From NCBI RefSeq assembly GCF_001874625.1, contig NZ_CP017671.1, forward strand, positions 744,001 through 808,000: 64,000 bases of DNA, in the 5' to 3' direction. Each line of letters begins with the position of its first letter. Position 1 is the stretch's first letter. Positions 19,189 to 28,644 of this stretch are shown here, piece by piece. The position numbers and the translations under genes are program-made. The notes under the pieces are model-generated. The model saw only the letters and a program-made list of their open reading frames with translations, searched no databases and was not told where the DNA came from. The stretch comes from Providencia rettgeri (GTDB lineage: Bacteria > Pseudomonadota > Gammaproteobacteria > Enterobacterales > Enterobacteriaceae).

Positions 19189-19656
19189 TTAATTGAGCTG
19201 CTCTAAATGACGGTTAATTTCATTTTGAATACTCGCTGAGGAACTATTTTTATTAAACTTCAGCATAGTAATTGCCTTCTCATGTTCATTCATATCGGTA
19301 AATAATGTTGAGCTCAAAGGCTTTGATTGTTGAAAATCTTTAGATTGGCTTTTGTGATTTAAAATTGCTTGCCTCATTGTTGGTGACGTATTGTTTTTAG
19401 TAAAACTAAGGGCAACAGCCGCTTTAGCATGGCTATCTAATTCAGAAAAACTTAATCCTTGGTTAATGGCTTTTTTTGTATTAATTCCAGCTTGATTAAG
19501 GTGGTTATTAATCGCCTTTTGAGTCGATACAGATGTGCTATTCTCAGTAAATGAAAGCGCCGTTGCCGCATTTTTATGTATATTATTTTCAGGTTTTGCG
19601 TAAGCCATATTAGCAGTGACAACGATAAGCCCTAAAGTCAAAATAACTTTTTTCAT
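19189..19656 (-). CDS. SilE/PcoE-like periplasmic protein with ligand-poor repeats
   Basis: 155 residues. A signal peptide ends near AYA (about residue 20). The mature part has three imperfect repeats of about 30 residues: HKNAATALSFTENSTS, HAKAAVALSFTKNNTS and HEKAITMLKFNKNSSS, each followed by an A/E-I-x-x-H element. The pattern, and the stretch MNEHEKA, recall the metal-binding SilE/PcoE proteins, where repeats read HExAxxAHExM...HQxM...HxxM. Here most of those His and Met positions are Leu, Thr, Ala or Gln. The position (downstream of cusS, same strand) is that of silE. A CusR-like box lies 82 bp upstream. Family membership is inferred and the role is unknown. Confidence 0.72.
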   Translation of the reverse strand: MKKVILTLGLIVVTANMAYAKPENNIHKNAATALSFTENSTSVSTQKAINNHLNQAGINTKKAINQGLSFSELDSHAKAAVALSFTKNNTSPTMRQAILNHKSQSKDFQQSKPLSSTLFTDMNEHEKAITMLKFNKNSSSASIQNEINRHLEQLN

Positions 19657-19737: not shown

Positions 19738-19759
19738 AAAATGACAAATCTGCCATTTT
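19738..19759 (-). promoter_or_regulatory. Imperfect CusR box before the SilE-like gene
   Basis: AAAATGACAA-AT-CTGCCATTTT differs from the perfect box at 21919-21940 at two positions (CTGC for TTGT). It lies in the 129-bp gap between cusS and the SilE-like gene, properly placed to regulate the latter. Confidence 0.68.
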
Positions 19760-19785: not shown

Positions 19786-21174
19786 TTATATATTATTAGG
19801 AAGGAAAATTGTAAAACGGGTAGAATACTCATCTGAAGCAATCTGAATAGATCCTTTATGTGCAAGTATAATTGATTTCACAATCGCTAAACCAATTCCA
19901 CTCCCCTCATTTTTTCTTTGCCTTGATTTATCCACCCGATAAAAGCGATCAAATAACTTAGGGAGATGTTCTTCAGGGATTTTTTTACCTGGGTTACTAA
20001 TGATAATCTCAATTCCACCTTTGACATTTGCCAAATTTATACTGACGGAATCACCTTTTGGCGTATAGCGGATGCCATTCGAAATTAAATTGGTAATTGC
20101 TCGACGAAGCATGTTTTTATCTGCAAAAATAGGGTTTGCTTCACCAATAAGTTTTAATTGAATTTCATTGTCTTCTGCTAAAAACTCAAAGTAATCAAGA
20201 ATTAAAGTTATTTCCTCCTTAAGATTGATCTGTTTTTTCTCTGGGATCAATCGGTTATCATCGGCTTGCGCCAGAAATAACATGTCTGAGATCATCCGTG
20301 ATAGTCGATTATATTCTTCCAAGTTTGAATAAAGCACCTCGACTAATTCTTCCTTTGTTCGATTTTTATTTAAAGATATTTGTGTTTCAGTCATTAAATT
20401 AGTGATAGGAGTGCGCATTTCATGGGCTATATCCGCTGAAAAATTGGTTTGCCTGACAAAAACATCTTCAATTTTAACCAACATTTGGTTAAATGAAATA
20501 GTTAATTGTTTTAGTTCTTTAGGGACAGCGGTTGGGTCTAAGCGAATACTTAAATTCTCTGAGGTGACATTTTTTATTTCATCACTGACATCTTTAAGTG
20601 GTTTCAACCCTTTGATAACAAGAAAATAAACAATAGAAACGGTTAAAAAACATAGCAAAACCGCACTGATAATTAAATTATTTATTAGTGAATTAAGGTA
20701 ATCATGATGGAAATTTAAGGATAAAGCTGTTACTAGCCGATATTTTTTTGCTTCTGAAGGGCCACTGATTTGAATATAGCTTTCTGACAGGCGGTAATTT
20801 TTAAGGTAGAGGTCTTTATTGCTTTTGCTAGGGTCATAATTTTTTAAGTGGGAAATAAGTTCTGTTGTTGCATTCGGTGATGTTAATACCTTTCCATTAT
20901 TGTCACTCAAATAAACCACAATATCTTGATGTTCATTAATAATAGTTCTGATCAGTGTATATTGCTCATCTTGTGAGCCAGCATTTTCGTTTAATAAACT
21001 GTGGATCGTTAAATTAATTTGGTTGAGTGTATATTCATCTTGCTGTTTAAAATGCAAAACGACAGAGTTGATCATAAGCCAGCTAAATAATAACAATGCA
21101 AGGGAAAGGGTGATGCTGATCAAGAAAATAAGCCGAGCAGAAATAGAGATCGGGGAGCGAAATAGCTTATTCAT
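19786..21174 (-). CDS. cusS: Heavy-metal sensor histidine kinase CusS
   Basis: 462 residues from ATG 21174. The TTG at 21189 is an alternative but gives a less natural N-terminus. An inner-membrane sensor of periplasmic Cu(I)/Ag(I). It has a membrane segment at about 12-38, a periplasmic domain, a second segment at about 165-190, HAMP, the phospho-accepting His in [13 protein letters not shown], an N-box ([11 protein letters not shown]) and a G-box ([12 protein letters not shown]). The start overlaps the end of cusR by 8 bp, so the pair is coupled. Confidence 0.94.
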
Positions 21175-21850
21175 TTTCTGGGATCTCAAGTAAATACCCC
21201 ATACCCCTAATGGTATGGATCAGTTTCGGTTCGTAATTATGATCGATTTTTGATCTTAAACGCTTAATCGCGACATCAATAACATTGGTGTCGCTATCAA
21301 AATTCATGTCCCATACTTTTGATGCAATTAAAGAGCGTGATAGCACTTCGCCTTGATGTAGAACAAAAAACTCAAGCAAAGCAAATTCTTTACTCGTTAA
21401 ATTAATTTTTTCATTAGACCGAGTGACTCGCCTTTTAATTAAATCAACATGCAAATCAGCAATAGAAAATTGAGTTTTTTGAATATTATTATTTCCTCGA
21501 CGTAAAAGAGTTCTAACACGAGCAAGTAATTCAGAAAAATCGAAAGGTTTTACAAGATAATCGTCAGCGCCAAGTTCAAGGCCTTTCACTCGATGCTCAA
21601 CATTACCTAATGCAGTTAACATTAATATAGGAGTGTTATTGCCAATAGTACGTAGGTTTTTCGCTATTTCCCAACCGTTAATATCAGGCAACATGACATC
21701 AAGGATGATGAGGTCATACTCTTCTGTTGTTGCCATATGAAGCCCCGTAATACCATTTTCTATCGCATCGACAATAAAACCAGATTCAGTTAACCCTTTT
21801 GATAAATATTCTCTGGTTTTATGTTCATCTTCTACAATAAGTAATTTCAC
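21167..21850 (-). CDS. cusR: Copper/silver response regulator CusR
   Basis: 227 residues, the family length. OmpR-type regulator: acidic residues VEDE near the N-terminus, D51 in [15 protein letters not shown] and Lys in [20 protein letters not shown], then a winged helix ending [12 protein letters not shown]. Activated by CusS, it should bind the palindrome in the cusR-cusC gap. It is divergent from cusCFBA, as in E. coli and the sil locus. Confidence 0.95.
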
Positions 21851-21918: not shown

Positions 21919-21940
21919 AAAATGACAAATTTGTCATTTT
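21919..21940. promoter_or_regulatory. CusR box in the cusR-cusC divergent promoter
   Basis: A perfect palindrome AAAATGACAA-AT-TTGTCATTTT identical in form to the known E. coli CusR box. It lies about 70 bp from cusR and 72 bp from cusC, so it can serve both directions. Confidence 0.88.
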
Positions 21941-22012: not shown

Positions 22013-23407
22013 ATGTTTTCACCAAAAATATTACTGATAGCTCATGCTCTAATTTTAACAGGGTGCGTCTCTCTCGCTCCTGAATATCAGCGCCCAAAGT
22101 CTAATGTACCAGAACAATTACATTCTGATTTAACGGCCGCTAGCAGAACAAGGGAATCGACATTTTCTATACCTAGCTGGCAAGCGTTTATTCAAGACCC
22201 GCAAATGAAAAGGGTGATACAGACAGCCCTTGAAAAGAACAGTGACCTTTATCTTGCCGCATTAGATGTGGAAGAAGCTCGTGTTCGTTTTGGCTTGTCT
22301 CAGGCTGAAAAGTACCCACAAATTAGCTCATCAGCGAGTGGTGATTATAACCAGTCACTGAATTCTGATTCATCTCTGAATAAAAAATACAGTGCGGGTA
22401 TTGATATTAGTTATGAGCTCGATTTTTTTGGTCGTATTAAGAATTTATCAGAAGCTGATAAAGCAAAATTCCTTTCTTCTAAAGAAATGAGCCGAGCTAC
22501 ACAAATTTTAACGATTAAGGCTGTCGCTGACGCATATTTAGATGTGGTATACAACCAACAACTTTTATTAATTGCTCAAGAAACAAAAAACAGTTATCTC
22601 AACAGCCAATCTATTGTGAGGCAAAAAGTTGCAGCAGGAAATGCGACACTATCAGATTTAGAGCAAGCGAAAGGGCAAGTTCAATCCATTGAAATTAGTA
22701 TAGAAAAAATTAATAGTGAAATAGTAAGAAATGAAAACTTAGTCAATTTCTTGACGCATGATTACGCTGAGAAAATAAAAATAGCCTCAACGAGCTATGA
22801 GCCAAAGTATCCACTTATTATAACCCCCTCAAATATACCTTCTGAAATGTTATTAAAAAGGCCTGATATTATGGCGGCAGAGCAAAATATTATTTCAGAA
22901 AATGCGAATATTGGTGTAGCAAGAGCGGCATTCTTCCCTTCTATTTCTTTCAATACTGGCATTGAGAATAGTAATGACTCTTTGTCGGGACTATTTGATT
23001 CCTCGAATGGTATTTGGAATTTTATTCCTAAAATTACACTCCCTATTTTTACTGGTGGTACAAATAGCCGAAATTTAGAGCTAGCGACTATTCGCAAAAA
23101 TAAAGCAATTGTTAATTACGAGAAAAATATCCAAGTGGCTTTTCGTGAAGTGAAAGATGCGTTGGTGATTAAATCTAGTTTAGAAAAACAAATATTCTCT
23201 CAAAAGCAGTATGTCAAAACGTTAGAACATGTATTGGCTCAAAAACAAGCTAGTTACCAATATGGCAGTTTAAGCTATTTAGATGTTCTTGAATCACAAA
23301 GAATTTTATTTACAGAGCAACAGAATTTATTGATGTTGAAAATAGAGCAGCAGAAGAATGAAGTGAATTTATTCTCTGCATTAGGTGGCGGACAAATAGG
23401 ATCGTAA
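22013..23407 (+). CDS. cusC: Outer-membrane efflux lipoprotein CusC
   Basis: 464 residues. A signal with lipobox LILTGC predicts lipidation at C18. A TolC-like outer membrane factor with two repeated coiled-coil hairpins (for example LSQAEKYPQISSSASGDYNQ and VARAAFFPSISFNTGIE), the exit duct of the CusCBA tripartite pump. It is the first gene of cusCFBA, with cusF starting 2 bp after its stop. Confidence 0.94.
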   Translation: MFSPKILLIAHALILTGCVSLAPEYQRPKSNVPEQLHSDLTAASRTRESTFSIPSWQAFIQDPQMKRVIQTALEKNSDLYLAALDVEEARVRFGLSQAEKYPQISSSASGDYNQSLNSDSSLNKKYSAGIDISYELDFFGRIKNLSEADKAKFLSSKEMSRATQILTIKAVADAYLDVVYNQQLLLIAQETKNSYLNSQSIVRQKVAAGNATLSDLEQAKGQVQSIEISIEKINSEIVRNENLVNFLTHDYAEKIKIASTSYEPKYPLIITPSNIPSEMLLKRPDIMAAEQNIISENANIGVARAAFFPSISFNTGIENSNDSLSGLFDSSNGIWNFIPKITLPIFTGGTNSRNLELATIRKNKAIVNYEKNIQVAFREVKDALVIKSSLEKQIFSQKQYVKTLEHVLAQKQASYQYGSLSYLDVLESQRILFTEQQNLLMLKIEQQKNEVNLFSALGGGQIGS

Positions 23408-23409
23408 AC

Positions 23410-23751
23410 ATGAAAAATTTGAATAAAGTTATTTTTGCCCTTTCGATAGGGATGTTCACAACGATAGGTTACGCAAATACAGCGGAGCACGATCATTCTG
23501 TTTACCCAGAAAAAGTTGCTGAGCCGGTTATTAACACAGAAGGTAAGTTAATTGCGATTGATAAAGCGAATAAAAAACTAACAATTAACCACCAAGCAAT
23601 TGAAAGTATTGGTTGGCCACCAATGACTATGCGTTTTACCTATGAAGATGAAAATATGATTAAAGGTTTACAAGAGAATGATGAACTAACGTTTTCTTTT
23701 TCTCAAAAAGGCAACCTTTCCATATTGAAATCAATCGAAAAGATAAATTAA
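23410..23751 (+). CDS. cusF: Periplasmic Cu(I)/Ag(I) chaperone CusF
   Basis: 113 residues with a signal peptide ending near GYA (about residue 22). The small OB-fold domain has the full metal site HQAIESIGWPPMTMRF: one His, the cation-pi Trp 8 residues on, and two Met at +3 and +5 from the Trp, the spacing known from E. coli CusF (H36, W44, M47, M49). It hands metal to CusB. Confidence 0.94.
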   Translation: MKNLNKVIFALSIGMFTTIGYANTAEHDHSVYPEKVAEPVINTEGKLIAIDKANKKLTINHQAIESIGWPPMTMRFTYEDENMIKGLQENDELTFSFSQKGNLSILKSIEKIN

Positions 23752-23768: not shown

Positions 23769-25037
23769 ATGTCATTAGTCAACCTGGCCAAATTACTGCT
23801 TGTGGTTATTTTATCGAGTGCGATTTCAATTTTATTTTACCGTTATTTCTTTGTAGATGAAAAACTGGTACAGGAAACTGAAAAACAAGAGCGCACCGTT
23901 TTATATTGGTATGACCCGATGTACCCAAATACTAAATTTGAGCAGCCGGGTAAGTCTCCTTTTATGGATATGGACTTAGTACCTAAATATGCGGATGAGA
24001 ATTTAGCTTCAGCAGATAGTAAAGGGGTCACTATTAACCCAACACAAACGCAAAATTTAGGTGTAAAAACAGTGGCTGTGAAATGGGGAAAATTAAACTA
24101 TGACTTAACATTTCCTGCTGAAATTGTATTTAATGACCACCAATTTGCCATCGTACAAGCACGGGAAAGTGGTTTTGTCGAAAAAGTTTATCCATTTACG
24201 GTGGGGGAGCAGATCCAAAAAGGAGAAGCTATCGCTGAGTTAACCATCCCTGCATGGGTCGAAGCTCAAAGTGAATATCTCGCCTTGAAGCAGATGGGCG
24301 TTCCACAAACAGATCTTAATAGCGTGCTTGAACGCCTACGTTTAAATGGCATGCCAGAAAATTCAATTGCTCAATTTATTAAAAGTAGCAAAGTACAAAC
24401 TCGTTTTATCATCAAAGCGCCTATTTCAGGGGTGATTACAGCACTAAATCTACGCCTTGGAATGAATGTGACAAAAGAAGGAGTTATTGCTCAAATTCAA
24501 GGAACAACTCCATTATGGTTGAATGCATCTATTTCACAATCAACAGCAGAATTGTTGAATAAAGAGGTTCAATTTTCTGTTGCTATTCCTGCTTATCCTA
24601 ATCACCAATTTAAAGTAAATAACTGGTTGATATTACCGAGTGCTGATGCGGCTAGCCGGACTATTAATATTCGTGCAGAAATTACAAATGGGGAAAATTT
24701 ATTAAAACCTGGGATGACTGCTTATTTAAATTTAGTCGCTGAAGATAAAGAAAGTCTATTAATTCCTTCTCAGGCGATAGTGGATTCAGGTAAAGAACAA
24801 CATGTGATTGCGGTAGGGAAAGACGGTGAGTTTATCCCGAAAAAAGTTCGGGTCATCAAGGAATCTCAACAAATGACAGCCATATCTGAAGGTTTACAAG
24901 TTGGAGAGCCTATAGTGACTCAAGGTATTTTCCTTATTGATTCTGAAGCCAATATTGCTGGTGCATTAGCACGAATGGAAGCACTTTCTGAGCAAGCCAC
25001 ACCATCTAATCATTCATCACATAAATCTCAGGAGTAG
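23769..25037 (+). CDS. cusB: Efflux RND periplasmic adaptor CusB
   Basis: 422 residues with an N-terminal membrane anchor (about 7-26). A Met-rich heavy-metal-binding segment follows (YWYDPMYPNTKFEQPGKSPF then MDMDLVPKY), then barrel-sandwich, helical hairpin and beta-barrel adaptor domains (FIIKAPISGVITALNLRLGM). It links CusA to CusC and takes Cu/Ag from CusF. The C-terminus is Ser/His-rich (NHSSHKSQE). cusA starts 3 bp downstream. Confidence 0.94.
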   Translation: MSLVNLAKLLLVVILSSAISILFYRYFFVDEKLVQETEKQERTVLYWYDPMYPNTKFEQPGKSPFMDMDLVPKYADENLASADSKGVTINPTQTQNLGVKTVAVKWGKLNYDLTFPAEIVFNDHQFAIVQARESGFVEKVYPFTVGEQIQKGEAIAELTIPAWVEAQSEYLALKQMGVPQTDLNSVLERLRLNGMPENSIAQFIKSSKVQTRFIIKAPISGVITALNLRLGMNVTKEGVIAQIQGTTPLWLNASISQSTAELLNKEVQFSVAIPAYPNHQFKVNNWLILPSADAASRTINIRAEITNGENLLKPGMTAYLNLVAEDKESLLIPSQAIVDSGKEQHVIAVGKDGEFIPKKVRVIKESQQMTAISEGLQVGEPIVTQGIFLIDSEANIAGALARMEALSEQATPSNHSSHKSQE

Positions 25038-25040
25038 ACT

Positions 25041-28000
25041 ATGTTGGAATGGATTATAAGACGCTCAGTAGCTAATCGGTTCTTGGTATTAATGGGGGTA
25101 GTTTTTTTAGTTATTGCAGGCCTCTGGAGTATTCGCCATACACCAGTTGATGCCTTGCCTGACTTATCCGATGTTCAAGTCATTATTAAAACGACCTATC
25201 CGGGTCAGGCTCCACAGTTAGTTGAAAACCAAGTTACTTACCCAATAACTACCACGATGTTATCTGTACCAGGTGCCAAAACAGTACGAGGTTTTTCTGC
25301 ATTTGGTGATTCATATGTTTATGTTATTTTTGAAGATAATACTGATTTGTACTGGGCTCGTTCAAGGGTTTTGGAGTATTTAAATCAGGTTCAAACTAAG
25401 TTACCTAAAGGGGCAGTCGCATCGATTGGACCAGATGCGACAGGGGTAGGCTGGGTTTTTGAATATGCTTTAGTCGATAAAACTGGAAAGCATAATCTAG
25501 CTGAATTACGTTCATTACAAGATTGGTTTTTGAAGTATGAATTAAAAGCGCTGCCTAATGTTTCGGAAGTAGCAACCGTTGGTGGTGTGGTGAAATCATA
25601 CCAAATAGTGGTTGACCCTCTGAAGCTTGCCCAGTTCTCAATTACTTTACCTGAGATAAAACAATCGGTAGAGATGGCTAACCAAGAAGCTGGGGGCTCT
25701 TCAATTGAGATTGCTGAAGCTGAGTATATGGTTAGAGCTAGTGGCTATCTTCAGTCACTGGATGATTTTAATAAAATTTACCTGAAAACATCTGAAAGTG
25801 GCATCCCTATTTATTTACAAGATGTTGCTCGAGTACAAGAAGGCCCTGAGATGCGCCGTGGGGTCGCGGAGCTGAATGGTGAGGGGGAAGTTGTTGGTGG
25901 AATAATTTTACTTCGCTCAGGTGAAAATGCACGTGATGTTATCCAAGATGTAAAACAAAAACTTGATGATTTAAAAGCTAGCTTACCCGAAGGTATTGAA
26001 ATCATCACAACCTATGATAGAAGCATATTAATTGATAATGCTATAGATAATTTAAGTTATAAATTACTGGAAGAATTTATTGTTGTAGCCCTCGTCTGTG
26101 CCGTTTTTTTATGGCACTTTCGTTCGGCATTAGTGGCTATTATTTCTTTACCGCTTGGTTTATTTATTGCTTTTATTGTAATGCGCTATCAAGGAATAAA
26201 TGCAAATATTATGTCGTTAGGGGGGATTGCAATTGCGATTGGTGCGATGGTTGACGCTGCAATCGTGATGATAGAGAACGCCCATAAAAAATTAGAAAAA
26301 TGGCAACACCAAAATGAAGGTAAAATACTCGATAATGCTCAGCGTTGGAAACTTATAACTGATTCCGCTGTGGAAGTTGGGCCTGCCTTATTCATTAGTT
26401 TATTAATTATCACTCTTTCTTTTATCCCTATTTTTACGTTAGAAGGGCAAGAAGGACGGTTATTTGGACCACTTGCGTTTACAAAAACCTATGCAATGGC
26501 TGGGGCAGCTGCCTTAGCATTAATAGTGATCCCCATTTTAATGGGGTATTGGATCCGCGGTAATATTCCAAATGAAAATAAAAACCCACTTAACCGTTGG
26601 CTTATCTCACTGTATAGCCCTATTTTGCTTAAGGTTTTAGCATGGCCGAAAACGACATTATTAATCGGTTTTTTAACACTATTTACCGTGATATGGCCGT
26701 TAAAGCATTTAGGCGGTGAATTCTTACCATCAATTAATGAAGGCGACTTGTTATATATGCCTTCAACATTGCCGGGGGTTTCACCCGCTCAAGCTGCATT
26801 TTTATTACAGAACACCGATAAGCTTATAAAAACCATTCCTGAAGTAGACACTGTATTTGGCAAAGTTGGTAAAGCTGAGACGGCAACAGACTCCGCTCCT
26901 ATGGAAATGATTGAAACGACAATTCGTTTGAAACCACAATCACAGTGGCGAGAAGGGATGACGCTTGAAAAAATCATTGACGAATTAGATGAAACAGTTC
27001 GTTTACCAGGGGTTGCAAACCTATGGGTTCCACCAATTCGTAACCGGATCGATATGCTTTCAACGGGGGTAAAAAGCCCTATCGGGATTAAAGTTTCAGG
27101 TAAAGATCTCCAAGAAATTGATGCTTTAGCGCAAGAAATTGAAAAAGTAACTAAATCTGTGCCCGGTGTTGTTTCTGTATTAGCAGAAAGGTTGGTTGGT
27201 GGCCGCTATATTGATGTCAAGATTGATAGAGAAAAAGCCGCCCGTTATGGAATGAGTATTAGCGATGTACAAGTGTATATATCGATGGCGACAGGGGGGG
27301 AAATGATTGGTGAAACGGTAGAAGGTATTGAACGTTATCCCATAAGTCTAAGATATCCACAGGATCATCGAAATAGTGTTTCCGCATTGAAATTATTACC
27401 GATTTTAACGCCAAGTAAGCAACAAATTGTACTGAGTGATGTCGCCGATGTGGCTGTCAATATGGGGGCACCTATGTTGAAAACAGAAAATGCACGTCCA
27501 ACAAGTTGGATTTATATTGACGCACGAGACCGCGATATGGTTTCTGTTATTAAAGATATTGATGCCGCAATAAAAGATAACATCCAAATGAAGCCGGGGT
27601 TGAGTTATTCATTTACAGGGCAATTTGAATTATTAGAAAGAGCTAACCAAAAGCTTATGCTAATGGTACCCGCAACTATTATGATCATTTTTGTGTTGTT
27701 GTATTTAGCTTTTAGGCGTTTCAGTGAAGCATTACTTATTTTACTCAGCCTACCTTTTGCTTTAGTCGGGGCTATTTGGTTCCTTTATTGGATGAATTTT
27801 AATTTATCCGTTGCGACGGGAACGGGGTTCATTGCATTGGCGGGCGTAGCCGCTGAGTTCGGTGTTGTTATGTTGATTTATTTAAGACATGCTATTGAAG
27901 ATAAAGAAAAAGTGCAAGGAATTAACCAGTTATCAAAACAAGATTTAGATAGTGCATTATATGAAGGTGCAGTACTTAGAGTCAGACCTAAAGCCATGAC

Positions 28001-28178
28001 GGTTGCGGTAATTTTAGCAGGTTTATTACCTATTTTATTAGGTACTGGAGTTGGCTCTGAAGTGATGAGTCGGATTGCAGCCCCCATGATTGGAGGAATG
28101 ATCACTGCACCATTATTATCGTTATTTATTATTCCTGCTGCATACAAACTAATTTGTCAGGCGCGCAATAAAAAATAG
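25041..28178 (+). CDS. cusA: Cu(I)/Ag(I) efflux RND permease CusA
   Basis: 1045 residues (1047 in E. coli). Heavy-metal RND proton antiporter of the inner membrane with 12 membrane segments and two large periplasmic loops. The three metal-site methionines fall at the same numbers as in E. coli: M573 ([10 protein letters not shown]), M623 ([10 protein letters not shown]) and M672 ([12 protein letters not shown]). The motif [19 protein letters not shown] in segment 4 carries the proton-relay Asp. It therefore looks fully functional for Cu/Ag. Confidence 0.96.
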
Positions 28179-28221
28179 ATTTTTATAAATATTATTAGTG
28201 ATTATTTAAAAGGTGAACTGG

Positions 28222-28644
28222 ATGAAAAAACTAATTTTAAGTGGAATGTTATTACTGTCATTTTCGGCTTTTTCGCAAGCAGAAAGCGTACAATTGTATA
28301 AAGATGCAAACTGTGGCTGCTGCCAGTTATGGGGGGAAGCAATTAATAAAGCGGGCTATGATGTTGTTATTAATGAGATAAGTTATGATGAATTAAGCCA
28401 GTTAAATGATAAATTAAAGGTGCCTTATAATTTACGTAGCTGCCATATTGCTAAATATAAAGGGAAAGTGATTGTTGGTCATGTCCCTGTAAGTAGTCTT
28501 GACGCTATTGAATCACTCCCCGCGGATGTCGTTGGCATTTCGGTGCCGGGGATGCCAATTGGCAGTTTAGGGATGGAACAACCGGATGGCAGAACCCAGC
28601 CATATTCCGTCGTCCAATTTAAAGCGAATGGTGAATACCGTTAG
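28222..28644 (+). CDS. DUF411 periplasmic (putative metal-binding) protein
   Basis: 140 residues from ATG 28222. AGGTG at 28211 favours this start over GTG 28213. A signal peptide ends near SQA. The DUF411/CopG-type domain has a Cys cluster CGCC in KDANCGCCQLWGE and a further Cys in LRSCHIAKY, then GHVPVSSLDAI and GMPIGSLGMEQPDGRTQPY, all family hallmarks. Such genes often sit in copper and silver resistance clusters, and this one starts 43 bp after cusA. A role in binding or reducing Cu/Ag is inferred. Confidence 0.85.
   Translation: MKKLILSGMLLLSFSAFSQAESVQLYKDANCGCCQLWGEAINKAGYDVVINEISYDELSQLNDKLKVPYNLRSCHIAKYKGKVIVGHVPVSSLDAIESLPADVVGISVPGMPIGSLGMEQPDGRTQPYSVVQFKANGEYR

Follow-up and report, generated by a model that had tools for sequence, protein, structure and literature searches.

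A ligand-poor relative of the silver-binding protein SilE beside the cus genes of Providencia

Introduction

What does a protein of the SilE kind do beside a copper and silver efflux system when most of the residues that bind metal in SilE are absent from it? The question is raised by a gene at 19189..19656 (minus strand) of a 64,000-nucleotide stretch of Providencia rettgeri DNA (positions 744,001 to 808,000 of contig NZ_CP017671.1), hereafter called the window. SilE is disordered and folds when silver ions bridge His and Met residues on its helices (PMC5008109; this and the other papers are cited from extracts). An earlier note on the window, made from its letters alone, had named the family and had described the protein as one that has lost most of its metal ligands, perhaps a decayed sponge, a protein retuned to another ligand or a structural partner of the pump. 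Here we ask whether the gene belongs to the SilE/PcoE family, whether it is decaying, and what its product might do instead of soaking up metal.

Results

The gene starts with ATG and encodes 155 residues including the signal peptide, an assignment based on the open reading frame, the NCBIfam profile NF047789 and orthologues. Residues 1-20 (19597..19656, minus strand) form a probable signal peptide ending in A-Y-A, judged by eye only; its last residue, A20, is invariant in 13 of 13 orthologues at the cus locus. The protein is probably exported to the periplasm. As the earlier note had it, the gene occupies the silE position beside cusRS and cusCFBA. It lies between thrC and the sensor kinase gene cusS (19786..21177), which is followed by the response regulator gene cusR (21167..21850, GTG start as listed), both on its own minus strand; then come, divergent and on the plus strand, the genes for the outer membrane channel CusC (22013..23407), the metallochaperone CusF (23410..23751), the adaptor CusB (23769..25037), the RND pump CusA (25041..28178) and a DUF411 protein (28213..28644). 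Beyond the DUF411 gene lie two open reading frames that we take to be an aldo-keto reductase gene and yaaA.

The only fitting profile for the window protein is NF047789 (silver-binding SilE), matched at E = 1.9e-8 and 34.8 bits; the equivalog cut-off, above which a protein is called SilE, is 200 bits. No protein in any of 24 Providencia-genus genomes scores above that cut-off, and all 20 aligned Providencia proteins match the profile at E = 0.01 or better (best 7.5e-19). This aligned set consists of 13 type I proteins, the copies at the cus locus, and seven of type II, a second relative elsewhere in the genome; a shortened type I copy in one genome (G296) was excluded. An unrelated family was rejected: Pfam has no match to the window protein below E = 0.1, and the 20 aligned proteins drew only scattered weak names, each with at most three members. 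Matches in a PDB sequence search to Ika8 (0.00087 over the whole chain, no single stretch being significant), Ika4 and an aminopeptidase were taken as chance, and the same search with a ligand-rich relative gave no match.

The internal repeats point the same way. Three 29-residue repeats begin at residues 27, 76 and 125, a spacing of 49 + 49: repeat 1 spans residues 27-55 (19492..19578), repeat 2 residues 76-104 (19345..19431), in the register of SilE 62-90, and repeat 3 residues 125-153 (19198..19284), in the register of SilE 111-139, all on the minus strand. SilE has two full repeats, at H62 and H111, likewise 49 apart; the ten His of our SilE-type reference sequence fall at the residue numbers of the published mutagenesis (extracts of PMC5008109). 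On a 29-position matrix made from 45 non-Providencia SilE/PcoE repeats, the three window repeats score -5.0, 9.0 and 9.7 bits. Shuffling the mature sequence 5000 times never reached their sum of 13.8 (shuffled mean -105.4, sd 10.0, best -62.3), nor, once the seven ligand columns were omitted, did any of 5000 shuffles come up to the observed sum. Repeat 1 by itself is weak, since two of 5000 shuffles contain one equally good stretch. The window repeats are thus in SilE register, with a 49-residue period in both proteins. The frame that the earlier note had read three times is found at all three places, but imperfectly: repeat 3 has A-I and M, and repeat 2 has R for Q. Judged by its sequence, the window protein is a relative of SilE in the wider SilE/PcoE family, and not SilE by the NCBI equivalog rule. 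The profile search and the repeat alignment that the note had proposed as checks, together with gene order, bear out its family assignment.

The metal ligands set the Providencia proteins apart. We set the 36 distinct repeats of the 13 type I proteins against 45 distinct repeats found in 43 sequences from outside Providencia; the division between Providencia and other sequences used partly a letter pattern, which moved only the shortened G296 copy. Positions 8, 11, 19, 22 and 29 played no part in the filter that picked the repeats. Position 8 is His in 45/45 outside repeats and Leu or Phe in 36/36 type I repeats (Leu in 35); position 11 is Met in 33/45 outside, and in type I never Met and His in 4/36; position 19 is His in 40/45 outside (in four more one step later), and in type I never His and Met in 7/36; position 29 is Met in 31/45 outside and neither His nor Met in 36/36 type I repeats; and position 22 is Met in 26/45 outside and in 9/36 of type I. 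The outer His are found in type I at position 1 in 29/36 and at position 26 in 32/36, counts that are biased because the filter used positions 1, 4, 10, 13, 16, 20-21 and 26-27.

Read against individual SilE residues, the pattern is equally uneven. H69, H118, H129, M72, M90, M132 and M139 have neither a His nor a Met counterpart in 13/13 type I orthologues: H118 is replaced by Leu and H129 by Ile in all 13, and H69 by Leu in 12 and Phe in one. The H80 counterpart is never His and is Met in 7/13, and M121 has lost its Met in all 13, with His in five. Counterparts of H38, H87 and M108 are present in every orthologue, those of H62 in ten, M83 in nine, and H111 and H136 in eight each. Among the 13 residues mutated in PMC5008109, as given in its extracts, H38, H62, H87, M108, H111 and H136 persist in the window protein, Met takes the place of H80, and H69, M72, M83, M90, H118 and H129 are gone. 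The metal-binding positions are mostly replaced, as had been read from the letters. H80, H87, H111 and M108 are reported there to matter most for silver-driven folding of SilE. In the numbering of the window protein, H27, H52, H101, M122 and M131 are invariant in 13/13 type I orthologues.

The binding motifs MxxHx6HxxM and HxxMxxxHxxM occur in none of the 20 Providencia proteins; outside the genus the first is present in 33 and the second in 30 of 43 sequences. With the shorter Hx6HxxM included, the tally is 0/20 in Providencia versus 42/43 elsewhere. His and Met make up 6.7% of the mature window protein against a median of 16.3% in 39 of the 43 outside relatives (the four with other start letters omitted), a comparison in which the signal was cut crudely at residue 20 and some rows are diluted by N-terminal extensions. 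Two His per repeat and a few Met remain, as the earlier note had counted: six His and three Met in the mature window protein, where a metal sponge would be expected to hold ten spatially conserved His.

Could the residues that remain still make a smaller sponge? Each of the 13 mature type I proteins still has 4-9 His and 2-8 Met, which might suffice, perhaps for Cu(II) or Zn(II) besides Ag(I); for SilE, binding of up to six Cu2+ and five Zn2+ is reported (extracts of PMC5008109). The outer His, biased as their counts are, and the scattered Met at positions 19 and 22 and His at position 11 fit such a protein. We nevertheless consider it rather unlikely: positions 8 and 29 without His or Met, 11 without Met and 19 without His hold for all 36 type I repeats, and the density of His plus Met is less than half the median of the outside relatives.

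The replacements themselves suggest packing. The residues, largely Leu and Ile, that stand in place of the inner hairpin His lie beside mostly conserved Phe and Ile in the type I repeats. An AlphaFold2 model of the window protein shows three helical hairpins at low confidence (pLDDT 57.6; 52.3 for a ligand-rich control), and on a charge-hydropathy scale the window protein lies slightly on the disordered side at -0.03 (type I mean -0.01, type II 0.09, outside relatives -0.04). Such hairpins could serve as a metal-free structural or regulatory partner that binds CusS or CusB, the remaining His and Met being incidental. That possibility draws on the conserved hydrophobic replacements, on the lack of the SilE binding motif from all 20 aligned proteins, and on the loss of the H111 and H136 counterparts in five of 13 orthologues. 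It is doubtful all the same, as a protein with a purely structural role would not need the five His and Met residues that are invariant in 13/13.

The type I gene travels with the pump. It is present in 14 of the 24 Providencia-genus genomes (the window's own included), and CusA, counted at E = 1e-100 or better, is found in exactly those 14, in one of them (G304) in three pieces. The other ten have neither, although one of them, G312, has a second-type copy. Thirteen of the 14 type I copies are full length. The copy in G296 is truncated at 138 residues and adjoins an intact CusA, so that the gene seems dispensable there. A DUF411 gene follows cusA in the window and in 11 fetched loci, but not in the twelfth, that of G296 (L068). 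thrC and cusS flank the type I gene in the window and in the 12 loci taken as long stretches (G298 not among them), and aldo-keto reductase and/or yaaA genes stand at the other end, past the pump; in G308 the thrC and reductase genes directly adjoin, and the cus island is therefore absent. A scan of named genomes with an alignment as query found relatives in six Providencia species, P. alcalifaciens, P. burhodogranariea, P. heimbachae, P. vermicola, P. rettgeri and P. stuartii (the last with the second type only); a single-protein query found none.

The second type is ligand-poor too. Full-length type II relatives occur elsewhere in six genomes (G300, G301, G304, G305, G309 and G313), and G312 has one of 112 residues. 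The binding motif is missing from them, and position 8 is again hydrophobic, with Leu in 19 and Met in one of 20 true type II repeats (23 were picked, of which three were false register matches). None of the seven copies has a CusR-like site above 14/20 within 200 bp.

Two further regions came to light. The window's own genome carries, outside the window (L002 1423-1620), a relic of a second SilE-like copy with about 66 codons open, between what are presumably a PACE-like transporter gene and a tonB-like gene. In P. stuartii NCTC11800 (L087 2805-10339) a two-repeat relative of 112 residues stands near genes that we take to encode a hemophilin-type protein, its outer-membrane secretion protein, a TonB-dependent receptor and TonB.

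Is the gene then decaying? In the 14 closest type I pairs dN/dS is 0.14-0.33; the window protein is too distant from all 12 others (pS 0.64-0.82) to give a ratio of its own. A CusR-box-like palindrome with 16-19 of 20 matches ends 73-82 bp before the start codon in 14/14 type I loci; that of the window (19738..19759, minus strand) matches 18/20 and lies 81 bp upstream. A perfect box (20/20) stands between cusR and cusC in the window (21919..21940, no strand assigned) and in 12/12 fetched loci. Shuffling the window by single letters (20 x 64 kb) gave three matches of 16 and none higher. The real window has three other 16/20 matches, away from the silE-like gene and from cusR/cusC, and none other reaches 17; the weakest boxes (16/20, in G311 and G296) therefore rest on their location. 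The palindrome is the one described for CusR in E. coli, a regulator that drives pcoE too (extracts of PMC11195947), and regulation of the silE-like gene by CusR is predicted from the site.

The view of the protein as a sponge on its way out, its need gone, can point to the truncated G296 copy at a locus that also lacks the DUF411 gene, to the relic in the window's own genome, and to type I orthologues that are 50-58% identical as against 92-96% for intact CusA. Its prediction of erosion sits badly with 13 full-length copies out of 14, with Leu at position 8 in 35/36 distinct repeats, and with the dN/dS values, even though these leave out the window's own branch. We regard it as quite improbable. 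Decay is unlikely because dN/dS is well below 1 in close pairs and the CusR-box-like site is retained in every one of the 14 loci; here the 'decayed sponge' of the earlier note is disfavoured, and either of its other two options, the retuned protein or the structural partner, may hold. Since the gene is intact in nearly all its carriers, the protein probably does a job different from soaking up metal.

When did the ligands change? In a tree that also takes in 20 outside sequences, chosen from the 43 by thinning on likeness and length, all 20 Providencia proteins fall on one side with support of 100/99, and 99/94 when the ligand columns, included in the first tree, are masked. Support is 95/98 for type I (88/99 masked) and 85/53 for type II (74/57 masked). 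Because all the Providencia proteins group and both types are ligand-poor, the ligand-poor state probably predates the split between types. No outgroup was available for rooting, as 389 of 394 genomes sampled from the order have no relative; the five that do (the window's own included) all belong to the same family. Ligand loss in Providencia is likely: it is the simpler account, given that the family's other genera have relatives that carry ligands (42/43 with a binding motif). The tree is unrooted, and gain on the other side is possible: the ligand-poor form could even have come first, the plasmid sponges having gained ligands. When the earlier note spoke of a protein that 'has lost' its ligands, then, the ligand-poor state stands and the direction of change is unproven.

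The rest of the Cus system keeps its core ligands. Every site of the CusA methionine relay, with the residues as named in extracts of PMC8092243, is kept in 12/12 intact Providencia CusA proteins, that of the window included (G304 being broken and G298 not included). In CusF the Trp, both Met and the aligned His are retained in 13/13 rows; CusB retains its N-terminal Met segment (YDPM, FMDMD) in 13/13, and CusS retains H42, F43 and H176 in 13/13 (residues from extracts of PMC10100754), the window proteins among them.

Two features of these partners differ from E. coli. E. coli CusS has a sensor loop rich in Met and His (M133-M135, H138, H142, M143, H145) that is missing in 13/13 Providencia CusS (window plus 12 loci). 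Some CusS outside Providencia (L152, L156) also lack His and Met in the loop, despite a ligand-rich SilE-type gene on the same stretch, and we therefore did not use coordinated stripping of ligands from CusS and the SilE-like protein as evidence. Providencia CusB ends in a short His-containing tail (window 24990-25037) that extends past the terminus of its E. coli counterpart; SilB, too, is extended at its C-terminus by a tail, a peptide of which binds silver (extracts of PMC8686694).

Discussion

We put about even weight on the following account: the gene encodes a functional member of the wider SilE/PcoE family that has one chromosomal place in Providencia and has shifted from metal sponge to low-capacity accessory of the Cus system. 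Homology, repeat register, the CusR-box-like site, conservation and the site-by-site replacement of ligands are its basis. In outline, CusRS would switch the gene on under copper or silver and the protein would be exported. Its three helical hairpins would be held by Leu, Ile and Phe packing where SilE uses silver or copper to fold, and the invariant H27, H52, H101, M122 and M131 would provide no more than a few Cu(I)/Ag(I) sites, or none. The protein might then aid the pump or the sensor (CusB/CusF or CusS) and not store metal. That it is an accessory made under copper or silver stress is likely, given the core ligands retained in pump, chaperone and sensor and the CusR-like site retained at the gene. 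Against this reading are the substitute ligands at some lost sites, Met for H80 in seven and His for M121 in five of the 13 orthologues, as well as the low confidence of the model and of its ligand-rich control, the slightly disordered charge-hydropathy score, the truncated copy of G296 and the two weakest boxes.

A bolder idea, which we offer tentatively and think less than probable, is that the SilE repeat is a scaffold with a metal-independent job. A copper-induced ligand-poor form, with a second copy that has no CusR-like site, would fold by hydrophobic packing and act on CusS or CusB. Roles for SilE beyond soaking up silver have been suggested: delivery to SilCBA or signalling to SilS (extracts of PMC5008109), and interplay with SilB (extracts of PMC8686694). 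Natural relatives that retain the repeat frame, the gene place and the CusR-like site but have few ligands separate metal binding from partner function and make the question testable. They also call for caution. The silE gene often serves as a silver-resistance marker (extracts of PMC5008109), and 'SilE homologue present' need not mean silver binding. A search of titles and abstract openings of open-licence papers, which is weak evidence, found no report of such a ligand-poor SilE variant; silE homologues have been detected by PCR in the neighbouring genus Morganella (extracts of PMC3119697).

How does the window protein compare with known systems? Like SilE of the pMG101-type sil operons (NF047789), it has a signal-like start, the repeat framework with its 49-residue period, a gene adjoining that of a silS/cusS-type kinase, and six predicted helices (by Jpred for SilE in extracts of PMC5008109, by the low-confidence model for the window protein). 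Unlike SilE, it has a full extra N-terminal repeat, neither HxxMxxxHxxM nor MxxHx6HxxM, and a profile score that falls short of the cut-off; of 16 ligand sites compared, seven lack His and Met in 13/13 orthologues and an eighth, M121, lacks Met in all (His in five). It shares the repeat frame with PcoE, whose gene in E. coli is switched on by CusR via a promoter palindrome (extracts of PMC11195947), whereas PcoE is rich in ligands, with 10 His and 15 Met (extracts of PMC5008109).

WP_015062719, annotated hypothetical and encoded beside a cus cluster on the Salmonella plasmid p14-120 (L031 9001-9498), also has three full repeats, spaced 50 + 51, the same cus gene order and a CusR-box-like site of 17/20; unlike the window protein it is ligand-rich, and it groups with SilE/PcoE in the tree. 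CusF is likewise a small periplasmic helper of CusCBA under CusR. It belongs, however, to a different Pfam family, and Providencia has CusF as well as the SilE-like protein.
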